Source of the DNA: Actinoplanes sp. NBRC 103695
Lineage (GTDB): Bacteria; Actinomycetota; Actinomycetes; Mycobacteriales; Micromonosporaceae
NCBI RefSeq assembly: GCF_030269485.1
Contig: NZ_BSTL01000002.1
Location: 359,671-423,670, forward strand
Direction of reading: 5' to 3'
DNA length: 64,000 bases
Shown: in pieces, positions 3,607-44,220 of the stretch
Numbering within the stretch: position 1 is the first letter of the stretch
How the letters are laid out: each line of letters opens with the position of its first letter
Notes under the pieces: generated by a model
Databases searched by the model: none
What the model was told of the DNA's origin: nothing
What the model saw: only the letters and a program-made list of their open reading frames with translations
Translations under genes and position numbers: made by a program

Positions 3607-3720
3607 TTGATCTTGCGGATCGATCGCCCCCGCCGCCTCCCCCACCCCTGTTCCGGGTGGGCCTGAACGTAGGGCCGGGGTACGACGATTTTGGGCGGCC
3701 GTCCACAGGGCCGGGCCGGT
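3607..3720 (-). repeat. Dispersed intergenic repeat, copy A, with damage-type promoter
   Basis: This ~114-bp segment matches 42665-42778 almost throughout, and its distal tail recurs at 33857-33887. Read on the minus strand it has a TGTGGAC block, an A-run, then TCGTCG (3683-3688), an 11-nt spacer and TACGTT (3666-3671). That is the layout of the uvrA/B/C promoters. About 7 nt downstream comes a hairpin with arms CCCACCC and GGGGTGGG, then a G-rich tract and the end CAAGATCAA. No ORF follows; a transcript would run antisense into the 3' end of the HAD gene. The right end touches the doxX stop codon. Confidence 0.85.
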
Positions 3721-4561: not shown

Positions 4562-4584
4562 TTGTCGTACCCCCGACGTACCGT
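4562..4584 (+). promoter_or_regulatory. PafBC/RecA-independent damage promoter of uvrB
   Basis: TTGTCG (4562-4567), an 11-nt spacer and TACCGT (4579-4584) match the mycobacterial RecA-NDp consensus TTGTCAGTG-N8-TAnnnT. The -10 ends 7 nt before the ATG at 4592, so transcription should start at or next to the start codon. Confidence 0.75.
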
Positions 4585-27245: not shown

Positions 27246-27268
27246 TTGTCATACCCCGTGGCTAGAGT
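27246..27268 (+). promoter_or_regulatory. PafBC/RecA-independent damage promoter of uvrA
   Basis: TTGTCA (27246-27251), an 11-nt spacer and TAGAGT (27263-27268) match the RecA-NDp consensus closely. Predicted start about 27275, leaving a leader of ~40 nt before the uvrA ATG. Confidence 0.8.
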
Positions 27269-33856: not shown

Positions 33857-33887
33857 GCGGCGGCGGGGGCCGCGACGGCAAGATCAA
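33857..33887 (+). repeat. Fragment of the dispersed repeat (distal tail only)
   Basis: GCGGCGGGGGC...CAAGATCAA here matches the distal ends of copies at 3607-3720 and 42665-42778. The promoter and hairpin part are missing. It begins 10 bp after the uvrC stop codon. Confidence 0.6.
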
Positions 33888-39709: not shown

Positions 39710-40501
39710 ATGGCTGACCAAGCTCGCCGGCCGATCATGGCCGGCAACTGGAAGATGAACCTCAACCACTTCGAGGCGATCTCCCTGGTGCAGAAGCTGG
39801 CCTTCAGCCTCACCGAGGAGCACCTCGCCGCCGTCGAGGTGGCCGTGATCCCGCCGTTCACCGACCTGCGCAGCGTGCAGACGTCGGTGGACGGGGACAA
39901 GGTCCAGATCGTGTACGGCGCGCAGGACCTCTCGCCGCACAAGGGCGGGGCGTACACCGGGGACATTTCCGGCGCGATGCTCGCCAAGCTCGGCTGCACG
40001 TACGTCGTGATCGGCCACAGCGAGCGCCGGCAGCACCACAACGAGGACGACGCGCTGGTCAACGCCAAGATCAAGGCCGCTTTCGCGGCGGGGCTCACCC
40101 CGATCTTCTGCGTCGGCGAGGGCTTGGACGTGCGCGAGGCGGGCGACCAGGTCGCGTACGTGCTGAGCCAGGTCGACGCCGGCCTGGACGGGCTCAAGGC
40201 CGACCAGATCAAGCAGACCGTGATCGCGTACGAGCCGGTCTGGGCGATCGGCACCGGCAAGACCGCCACGCCCGAGGACGCGCAGGAGGTCTGCGGCGCC
40301 ATCCGGGCCCGGCTCACCGAGGCGCACGGCGCTGAGGTCGGCGACGTCGTCCGCATCCAATACGGTGGATCTGTGAAGGCGGCCAACATCGCCGCGATCA
40401 TGGCAAAGCCGGACGTCGATGGTGCTCTCGTCGGCGGCGCCAGCCTGGACGCCGAGGAGTTCGCGTCCATCTGTCGCTACCAGGAGCACGTGGCTCGCTG
40501 A
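39710..40501 (+). CDS. tpiA: Triosephosphate isomerase
   Basis: 263 aa. The TIM barrel shows '[15 protein letters not shown]' (Lys of the active site), '[14 protein letters not shown]' (catalytic His about residue 103) and '[16 protein letters not shown]' (catalytic Glu about residue 174). It interconverts dihydroxyacetone phosphate and glyceraldehyde 3-phosphate. ATG follows the pgk TGA without a gap. A hairpin ACCCGGCC/GGCCGGGT at 40506-40533 just after the stop may end or attenuate the operon transcript before secG. Confidence 0.98.
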
Positions 40502-42476: not shown

Positions 42477-42617
42477 GCGTGGGCTGACGCCTGTGCGGGC
42501 GTGTTGAGTGCGAGCCGACGCCTGTGCGGGCGTGTTGAGTGCGAGGCGACGCCTGTGCGGGCGTGTTGAGTGCCGGTGTGTTGAGTGCGGGCTGATGCCT
42601 GCGCTGGCGCGTTGAGG
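42455..42617. repeat. 31-bp tandem repeat array across a stop codon
   Basis: Units of GACGCCTGYGCSGGCGYGTTGAG plus ~8 bp start at 42455, 42486, 42517, 42548 and 42594; units 2 and 3 are nearly identical. Unit 1 contains the stop codon of the upstream gene. There are no spacers of distinct sequence, so it is not CRISPR. Confidence 0.85.
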
Positions 42618-42664
42618 TCGCTCCGGTCGGATATCGTCGCTGGTCGCCGCTTCGGCCGTCGGTT

Positions 42665-42778
42665 TTGATCTTGGTTGCGGCCCCCGCCGCCACCCCCACC
42701 CCGTGCACTGGGTGGGCTTCAACGTAGGGGAGGGGTACGACAGTTTTCGGTGGTTGTCCACAGGTCGGGCCGGCCCGG
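42665..42778 (-). repeat. Dispersed intergenic repeat, copy B, with damage-type promoter
   Basis: Second full copy of the repeat at 3607-3720. On the minus strand: CCTGTGGACAACC, AAAA, CTGTCG, an 11-nt spacer, TACGTT (42721-42726), then the CCCACCC-N7-GGGGTGGG hairpin, the GGCGGCGGGGGC tract and CAAGATCAA. A transcript would leave through the 31-bp repeats, antisense to the proline-rich gene. Together with the tandem array it fills the 332-bp spacer before the sigma gene. Confidence 0.85.
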
Positions 42779-42808
42779 CTTTCCCTCTCTTCTCGGCGTC
42801 TGGATGCG

Positions 42809-43552
42809 ATGAGTCTTCTTCTTCCTCTGCCTTCCGCCTCCTGGCGGGGTGGGACGTTGGCGCGGCTGTTCCGGTCGATGGCCGAGCGGGTCGCTCCGTC
42901 GGCCTGGCCGGGGCCGGGGCGGGGCAGCGGCGCCGGTGCCGGTGGCGGTGCCGGTGGCCTTGGCGGCGCTGGCGTCGGCAGCCGTGCCGTTGGCGGCGGC
43001 CTCGCCGGTGTCAGCGCCGGTGGTGCCGGTGGTGCCCGTGCCGGTGGTGGCGTTGGCGGCGGTGGGGCTGCGGGGATCGATGAGCTCTATCGGGCTCGGC
43101 GGCTCGCTCTGGTGCGGCTCGCGGTGCTCATGGTGGATGACCTGGGGACTGCCGAGGATGTGGTGCAGGAGGCGTTCGCCAAGTTGTGGCGGCGGCACGG
43201 GGCGGATCTGCGCGGCGTGGATGACCCCTCCGCCTATCTGACGACCGCGGTGCTCAACGTTGCCCGGTCGGCGTTGCGGCGGCGGCGGGTGGCGCGGGGA
43301 TATGTGTTGCCGCGGGTGGGTGTGGCGCCGGCCGCCGAAGATCTGGCGCTGCTGGGTGAAGGGGATCGGGAGGTGCTGGCGGCGCTCGGGCGGTTGACGG
43401 CCCGGCAGCGGCAGGTGGTGGTGTTGCGCTACTGGTCGGAGTTGTCGGAGCAGGAGATCGCGGACGCTCTGCGGGTTTCGCGGGGCACGGTGAAGTCGAC
43501 GGCCAGCCGGGCGCTGACCATTCTGCGTGGGGCGTTGGAGGGGCGGCGATGA
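42809..43552 (+). CDS. ECF sigma factor (SigE-like) with Gly-rich N-terminus
   Basis: 247 aa. Region 2 is at about residues 90-155 ('ELYRARRLALVRLAVLMVDDLGTAEDVVQEAFAKLWRR') and region 4 at about 185-243 ('LTARQRQVVVLRYWSELSEQEIADALRVSRGTVKSTASRAL'), like the SigE/ECF41-type families. Residues 35-88 are a Gly/Ala/Val repeat tract of no known role, made from GGTGCCGGTG-like DNA repeats, absent from normal ECF factors. The true start could therefore lie downstream (for example GTG/ATG codons near 42881). The ATG of the following membrane protein overlaps the stop (ATGA), so both are translated together. Confidence 0.88.
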   Translation: MSLLLPLPSASWRGGTLARLFRSMAERVAPSAWPGPGRGSGAGAGGGAGGLGGAGVGSRAVGGGLAGVSAGGAGGARAGGGVGGGGAAGIDELYRARRLALVRLAVLMVDDLGTAEDVVQEAFAKLWRRHGADLRGVDDPSAYLTTAVLNVARSALRRRRVARGYVLPRVGVAPAAEDLALLGEGDREVLAALGRLTARQRQVVVLRYWSELSEQEIADALRVSRGTVKSTASRALTILRGALEGRR

Positions 43553-44055
43553 GTGACGACCTGGACGTCCGGGTGCGGCGGGCGCTCGCTGCGCGGGCGG
43601 GGCAGATCACCGCGGAGCGGCTGCGGCCCGCGGAGTTGCCCGGCAAGGCGGAACCGGCCGGGCCGCGGAGGTTGGCGCGGTGGGATGTGGTGCGGCGGTG
43701 GCTGGCGCCTGGGCTCGTGGGGGCCGCGGCGATGGCGGTGCTTTTCGCCGTACTCGTGATCAGGCAGCCGGACCGGCCGCCCGCGCAACCCGCCGGTCCG
43801 CCGGCGAGTTCCACCCCGGCCGCGCCTTCGCCGGTCGCCCCCTCGCCGTCTGCGGTCGTGGACGGGCCGCAGCCGGCGCCGACCGACGTCAGGAAGCCCG
43901 GTCCCTTGCCCACGCCCGGCGGCGGCGCTCCCGAGTCGAGTCCCGGCGCCGACCGGGCCGAGCCGAGCCCCGGCGCCAAAGAGGCCGAGCCGGGCCGCCG
44001 CAACGACAACGTCGCGCCAAGCCCGGCCGGCACCCGTCCGCGCCCGACCAGCTGA
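43549..44055 (+). CDS. Membrane protein coupled to the second ECF sigma factor
   Basis: 168 aa. A cytoplasmic N-terminus of about 55 residues (DDLDVRVRRALAARAGQI... ) is followed by one transmembrane helix (about residues 57-75) and a Pro/Ala/Ser-rich external tail. The ATGA overlap with the sigma gene and the N-in topology suggest an anti-sigma or scaffold role. The domain itself is not recognised, and there is no zinc-binding motif. It ends 40 bp before palindromic element copy 2. Confidence 0.7.
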   Translation: MSDDLDVRVRRALAARAGQITAERLRPAELPGKAEPAGPRRLARWDVVRRWLAPGLVGAAAMAVLFAVLVIRQPDRPPAQPAGPPASSTPAAPSPVAPSPSAVVDGPQPAPTDVRKPGPLPTPGGGAPESSPGADRAEPSPGAKEAEPGRRNDNVAPSPAGTRPRPTS

Positions 44056-44095
44056 AGCGCACGCAGCCAGTCCGCAGGTCTTGATCTAGAGCTTG

Positions 44096-44220
44096 ACCAC
44101 CCGCATTTCGCCCGTCGGTGACTTGGCGCGAAAAGGTCGAGGCGAAGCCGTGGTCCTTTTCGCGCCCAAGCCACCGACCGCCCTTAGGGCGAAATGCCCG
44201 GAGGAGCGAAGCGACGACCA
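44096..44220 (-). repeat. Stop-adjacent palindromic element, copy 2 (after pgl)
   Basis: Same family as 37105-37230, inverted. On the minus strand it starts one base after the pgl TGA with TGGTCGTCGCTTCGCTCC and ends with GGGCGAAATGCGGGTGGT. The inner stem (44114-44136 with 44155-44178) differs in sequence from copy 1 but remains paired, with one bulge; the loop again contains the CCACGGCTTCGCCT block. It separates the convergent sigma-partner and pgl genes. Confidence 0.88.

Follow-up and report, generated by a model that had tools for sequence, protein, structure and literature searches.

A dispersed intergenic repeat of Actinoplanes that carries a candidate PafBC-type damage promoter

Promoters of the RecA-NDp (P1) type follow the published consensus tTGTCRgtg-N8-TAnnnT (PMC5656591). 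PafBC works on such promoters together with the housekeeping polymerase after activation by single-stranded DNA, and it does not bind its own promoter when polymerase and single-stranded DNA are left out (PMC11804915). Among dispersed repeats, the CREEs of Neisseria are non-coding, mostly intergenic, mobile and promoter-bearing elements of ~70 to 150 bp, present in about 100 copies (PMC5039591; PMC2649163); their promoters are not reported as PafBC or damage promoters in these two papers. REP/REPIN elements, associated with RAYT, are short, palindrome-bearing sequences downstream of genes, occur in tens to hundreds of copies and are patchy among relatives. A REP is defined by a GTAG or CGTC tetranucleotide beside an imperfect palindrome of 20 to 40 nt (PMC3733652). 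MITEs are small, non-coding and moved in trans.

The repeat described here lies in a stretch of 64,000 nucleotides of an Actinoplanes genome (the window) and shares traits with all of these systems. With PafBC-dependent promoters it has in common the tTGTCR core and the 17-nt distance from TTGTC to TAnnnT, a layout that also stands at genes of the recA/uvrA/uvrB type in a host that has PafB and PafC, but here the motif belongs to a dispersed repeat that is non-coding; a DnaA-like box precedes the motif, and a palindrome and G-run lie across or beside the expected start. The repeat matches the CREEs in copy number, size, non-coding nature, mostly intergenic position, mobility and promoter motif, whereas CREEs have 26-bp inverted terminal repeats and the host is not Neisseria. 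It also has the palindrome, the position downstream of genes, the copy number and the patchy distribution of REPs, but is about three times longer and carries a promoter motif. GTAG is found on the other side of the stem and on the opposite strand, CGTC lies ~25 nt away, and the core is 82 nt long. Y1/RAYT transposase genes (PF01797) are absent from this genome and from three other carriers, and mobilization by RAYT was rejected on this evidence; the search did respond in control genomes (5), and one repeat-free relative has five Y1 transposase genes. Like a MITE, the repeat is small, non-coding and evidently moved in trans, but it has no terminal inverted repeats, its 5' end CCTGTGGACAAC and 3' end ...AAGATCAAC not being complementary, and no general target-site duplication was detected. 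It is CREE-like in its working and REP-like in its genomic placement, lacks the defining features of both, and falls outside the MITE definition by its termini. A literature search retrieved no paper describing it, which is weak evidence of novelty, as most subscription papers lie outside the coverage of the search.

The first-pass annotation of the window had pointed out two copies of a dispersed intergenic repeat, A and B, and both were confirmed at their places on the minus strand, with cores at 3628-3709 (A) and 42682-42764 (B). Each scores 93.5 bits against a covariance model built here from 31 repeat copies, and the best other match in the window scores 12.6 bits. The genome-wide count and alignment that the annotation had suggested gave at least 85 copies at E ≤ 0.001 in the 10.8-Mb, 180-contig assembly, with a conserved consensus; this count, from 150 scored out of 12,204 candidates, is a minimum, and it places the repeat far beyond chance. 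The window contains the layout GTCGTACCCC-N5-TACGTT twice, whereas none of 100 shuffles has it. The core measures ~82 nt and the whole element ~105 to 125 bp with its tail, and the mostly intergenic location is borne out by 67 intergenic copies that were classified by their neighbors. Two details had to be amended. The upstream motif, given as YSGTCG, is right in its GTCG part but reads YYGTCG, since copy B has a T before GTCG. The hairpin, given as CCCACCC-N7, is present, but in copy A six nucleotides separate CCCACCC from GGGGTGGG. The features of both copies and of two comparator promoters are as follows.

3628-3709, minus strand: conserved 82-nt core of copy A (covariance-model match of 93.5 bits, and alignment)
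3607-3709, minus strand: copy A including its AT-rich tail, which has CAAGATCAA at 3607-3615
3699-3707, minus strand: DnaA-box-like TGTGGACGG of copy A (alignment columns 3 to 11)
3677-3688, minus strand: upstream half of the PafBC-type promoter motif of copy A, TCGTCGTACCCC
3666-3671, minus strand: -10-like hexamer TACGTT of copy A
3658, minus strand: A at the putative +1 of copy A
3641-3661, minus strand: palindrome of copy A (CCCACCC at 3655-3661, GGGTGGG at 3641-3647)
3630-3640, minus strand: GG-n-GG-n-GG-n-GG of copy A, a possible two-quartet quadruplex predicted to adjoin the hairpin
42682-42764, minus strand: conserved core of copy B (covariance-model match of 93.5 bits)
42665-42764, minus strand: copy B including its tail, which has CAAGATCAA at 42665-42673
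42754-42762, minus strand: DnaA-box-like TGTGGACAA of copy B (TTGTCCACA on the plus strand)
42732-42743, minus strand: upstream half of the PafBC-type promoter motif of copy B, CTGTCGTACCCC
42721-42726, minus strand: -10-like hexamer TACGTT of copy B
42695-42716, minus strand: palindrome of copy B (CCCACCC at 42710-42716, GGGTGGG at 42695-42701)
42684-42694, minus strand: GG-n-GG-n-GG-n-GG of copy B, predicted quadruplex
4562-4584, plus strand: putative uvrB damage promoter TTGTCGTACCCCCGACGTACCGT, comparator
27246-27268, plus strand: putative uvrA damage promoter TTGTCATACCCCGTGGCTAGAGT, comparator

Read along the promoter strand, the element is composed of a DnaA-box-like TGTGGAYAA, the motif YTGTCGTACCC-N6-TACRTT, the palindrome CCCACCC-loop-GGGTGGG, the run GG-n-GG-n-GG-n-GG and an AT-rich patch. 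The aligned consensus is CCTGTGGACAAC-nnCCGAAAAn-TGTCGTACCCnnGCC-CTACRTT-CAnG-CCCACCC-AGTGCn-GGGGTGGG-GGAGGTGGCGG. Column statistics over 70 copies from this genome show near-invariant blocks alternating with drifting spacers. The palindrome and the G-runs are the most conserved parts, at 100% at most positions, including both C triplets, both G triplets and the Gs of the run, the linkers of which vary. The TA and the final T of the hexamer are present in 70/70 copies and the GTC of the upstream half is conserved at 90 to 97%, while the spacer columns reach only ~40 to 60%. TGTGGA is found in 77 of 84 copies and the full TGTGGAYAA in 43. The AT-rich patch, 10 to 20 nt past the core, has 51 to 62% AT versus 27% around it and often contains CAAGATCAA or its complement, and upstream of the CC the alignment of these copies shows no conserved signal. 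Loop length differs by 1 to 5 nt among copies and, in keeping with the annotation, no open reading frame follows at a fixed distance after the 70 copies; a coding role was rejected on both grounds. Beyond what that annotation had described, the repeat has a DnaA-like box and G-runs of the quadruplex type, is mobile and occurs in far more than two copies.

The motif NGTCR-N11-TAnnnT is present in 65 of the 84 copies and in none of 420 flank windows (shuffle mean, 0.14), and is incomplete in the other 19. The TGTCR version with the 11-nt spacer occurs in 37/84, and no other spacer length ever matched in more than 3 copies. In sequence and in spacing, with 17 nt from TTGTC to TA, the motif matches the RecA-NDp/P1 consensus. 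A genus form, TTGTCRnACCC-N6-TAnnnT, is found 20 times in this genome, where six of the exact matches are repeat copies, and 20 times in a repeat-free relative; the reversed-pattern control gave 0. In one or the other of these genomes it precedes recA, uvrA, uvrB, radA, tag-like and dinB-like genes, identified from their translated starts and, for UvrA and UvrB, also by family search, and it stands before uvrB in nearly all sampled Actinoplanes. The same layout had been claimed before uvrB and uvrA in the window, and it is found there, with the identities of both products confirmed. Genes for PafB and PafC lie a short way downstream of pafA-family genes; the two proteins match solved PafBC complexes (PDB 7p5x and 9fnd) at 9e-69 and 1e-76 and show PafC HTH and WYL/WCX domains. 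The motif evidence supports the view that the repeat carries a putative genus-specific form of the PafBC damage promoter, with positions conserved in most copies. Many of the copies may thus be activated together by DNA damage.

Empty sites show insertion at two loci, kdpA-kdpB and a BtuCD-like pair, which were chosen because, upstream of uvrB, relatives show no synteny with the neighbors of locus A. Queries for the empty sites were built from the ends of the flanking genes. In each of the two pairs the genes adjoin or overlap in eight aligned relatives, while here they are parted by inserts of ~288 nt (BtuCD-like) and ~137 nt (kdpA-kdpB), both holding the element and both with the element pointing along the operon. 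Since the two operons have no insert in the eight relatives each, it is the element that inserts. At kdp, ~20 nt of the kdpA stop/kdpB start (TCGCGGAGGGC.TGTC.TGA) stand on both sides of the insert, so that both genes retain their ends; this flank repeat may be a long target duplication or a compensating repair. Over 84 copies, target-site duplications show no excess over permuted flanks, the ~20 nt being seemingly duplicated at kdp alone. Convergent genes flank 31 of the 67 intergenic copies, compared with a share of 13% among neighboring gene pairs; in tandem arrangements, 17 copies follow the direction of the genes and 12 oppose it, which gives no clear bias in orientation. Twenty-one of 48 copies begin 0 to 11 nt past a same-strand stop codon. 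Plasmid, phage and viral collections gave no match to the repeat, and a source of these kinds was rejected.

Tandem repetition was seen around several copies. At the BtuC/BtuD-like junction, several tandem repeats of the sequence at the start of the downstream gene (GTGATCGGGGTGCGCGGCGTGA) follow the element, and in two copies the element's own G-rich part is tandemly repeated. Tandem arrays lie downstream of 40/84 copies versus upstream of 29/84, a comparison confounded by upstream coding sequence. One such array is near copy B, at 42478-42620 of the window, and from copy B to the 6-phosphogluconolactonase gene a further ~1.4 kb (42780-44220) is rich in GC-rich low-complexity sequence and has no confident gene call.

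The repeat family is present in 7 of 40 sampled Actinoplanes genomes, with at least 85 copies here and up to 15 in the others, and its pattern occurs in records of Paractinoplanes lichenicola, A. subtropicus and Actinoplanes sp. KI2; in the collections searched, it is restricted to Actinoplanes. Three sampled genomes with 96 to 98% UvrB identity have no repeat. In a uvrB tree of 29 genomes, this genome forms a long branch by itself, and ~4 state changes are required to account for the carriers. The sister-species version, represented by 47 copies from the other six carriers, keeps TGTGGA, the palindrome and most G-runs, has TGTCR in 44/47 and shows the same spacing to a T....T hexamer in 41/47. 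This hexamer is TTnACT, preceded by TGn in 36/47, and TAnnnT occurs in 1/47, whereas the uvrB promoters of these species retain TAnnnT where seen. In the sister species the copies may be weakly active or inactive as promoters, or else an extended TG supplies what the -10 requires. The TTnACT hexamer is the strongest argument against promoter function being uniform. The promoter hexamers had been expected at conserved positions; this holds in 65 of 84 copies here, but not for the TA in 46 of the 47 copies from other species. The proposal that the repeat spreads a damage-type promoter likewise gains from the genus PafBC motif in most copies and from the empty sites, and loses from the sister-species hexamer without TA, so that the first-pass reading as a whole is partly supported.

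The stem is present in all copies. Across 70 copies, six of its seven pairs show no variation, and the remaining A-T pair is only broken, in 13 of them; no pair has both sides altered, and covariation support is therefore absent. As DNA, the hairpin is no more stable than same-composition shuffles (z of -0.86 and +0.19), and it is conservation, not folding energy, that marks it as real. With quadruplex energies switched on, a quadruplex is predicted in 84/84 copies, typically with two quartets and, if the stem is part of the folded sequence, immediately adjoining it. For the sister species, the predicted fold contains a quadruplex in 37/47 copies, while four GG runs past the stem are found in only 15/47. 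Nothing in the window matched Rfam at gathering score; the single sub-threshold match, mir-3960 at 26.5 bits against its gathering score of 73, was judged compositional.

We favor, with moderate confidence, a non-autonomous mobile repeat whose intact copies would act as PafBC-dependent damage-inducible starts, with transcription or strand opening tied to copying. The repeat would be a recently proliferated non-coding element of ~105 to 125 bp that favors permissive 3' intergenic sites for insertion, and every intact copy would carry a RecA-NDp promoter of its own. In response to the single-stranded DNA that damage generates, PafBC would bring the housekeeping polymerase to many of the copies. 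Each of these would then produce a short, structured, G-rich transcript with its start within or beside the CCCACCC/GGGTGGG fold and the GG-n-GG-n-GG-n-GG run. The transcription, or the opened G-rich strand, would most likely serve the element's own copying, and its importance for copying would explain why promoter positions are conserved while the spacer drifts. From the observed family with its copy number, the identity, spacing and conservation of the motif, the insertions at two loci and the PafBC genes, we infer promoter activity, a transcript, its start site and a link between transcription and spread. At many gene promoters with the genus motif (uvrB, tag-like and others), the start codon lies 6 to 8 nt past the hexamer, which implies leaderless mRNAs. 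At this leaderless-like distance, transcription of the repeat would start at the A inside CCCACCC. Such an RNA would be three bases short in the 5' arm, so that the fold would belong to the non-template strand of the DNA, or the start would be elsewhere. This, like the missing compensatory changes in the stem, weakens the first-pass suggestion of a short structured RNA. Besides the sister-species hexamer, the 19 copies with an incomplete motif and the negative searches for a transposase, terminal inverted repeats and a general target duplication, two considerations weigh against the favored explanation: the family consensus could stem from a few source copies and not from selection on each copy, and with convergent genes so near, the promoters would produce antisense transcripts, possibly at a cost. 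A variant, which we consider highly unlikely, is a damage-triggered R-loop or replication-start module, in which the DnaA-like box, the PafBC promoter, the G-cluster at the start site (hairpin and quadruplex on the displaced strand) and the AT-rich patch would open DNA at many sites and could prime repair replication or copying of the element, or return single-stranded DNA to PafBC.

The strongest rival, possible though doubtful, is the same repeat with an unused promoter, a REP- or MITE-like element whose conserved bases would be signals for a mobilizing enzyme or for DNA structure and whose promoter likeness would be inherited. The palindrome and the G-runs being the most conserved parts agrees with this, as do the sister copies, which lost the -10 TA and retain TGTCR, palindrome and G-runs, and the 3'-intergenic placement known for REPs (PMC3733652). 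Such an element would leave the invariant TA and final T in 70 copies, at exact RecA-NDp spacing and beside a drifting spacer, to be explained. That copies put a downstream neighbor, such as kdpB or the BtuD-like gene, under damage control in place is improbable: two copies do lie inside operons in the operon's own direction, and Neisseria CREEs give promoters to their neighbors (PMC2649163; PMC5039591), but the largest class, between convergent genes, and the lack of a clear bias in the tandem class are against it.

Two further readings fare worse. The copies could be 5' leader remnants of a once-complete mobile gene under a damage promoter, and the promoter with its GGAGG-like run does look like the leader of a gene; among actinobacterial mobile genes, some respond to DNA damage. 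We regard this origin as very improbable, for no open reading frame stands at a fixed distance after any of the 70 copies or consistently in relatives, the loop varies in length by 1 to 5 nt, and the phage, plasmid and viral collections gave no match. An HNH endonuclease, to which the repeat had earlier been linked, was examined as DUF222 (13E12); PF02720 is absent from the genome, and a parent gene of this family was rejected. Least probable of all is a dispersed reservoir of binding sites titrating DnaA and/or PafBC-RNA polymerase. The copy number and the frequencies of TGTGGA, TGTGGAYAA and the PafBC-type site (77, 43 and 65 of 84 copies) would suit it, but the repeat is absent from most of the genus, including the three genomes closest in UvrB cited above, a reservoir leaves the palindrome and G-runs unexplained, and PafBC needs polymerase and single-stranded DNA to bind its promoter (PMC11804915).

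Should the copies fire, a mobile repeat would have taken over the actinobacterial damage regulon, with a single signal setting off transcription at dozens of additional sites, many of them antisense to convergent genes. The family would then provide a natural setting in which to ask if non-coding elements couple their spread to host DNA damage, and a ready set of PafBC promoters in which to measure which bases matter, with the altered -10 box of the sister species as a built-in comparison.

The tail sequence CAAGATCAA occurs four times in the window (3607-3615, 33879-33887, 40066-40074 and 42665-42673) versus 0.19 expected. Two of the four are in repeat tails, and the sequence may represent an intergenic motif in its own right in this genome.
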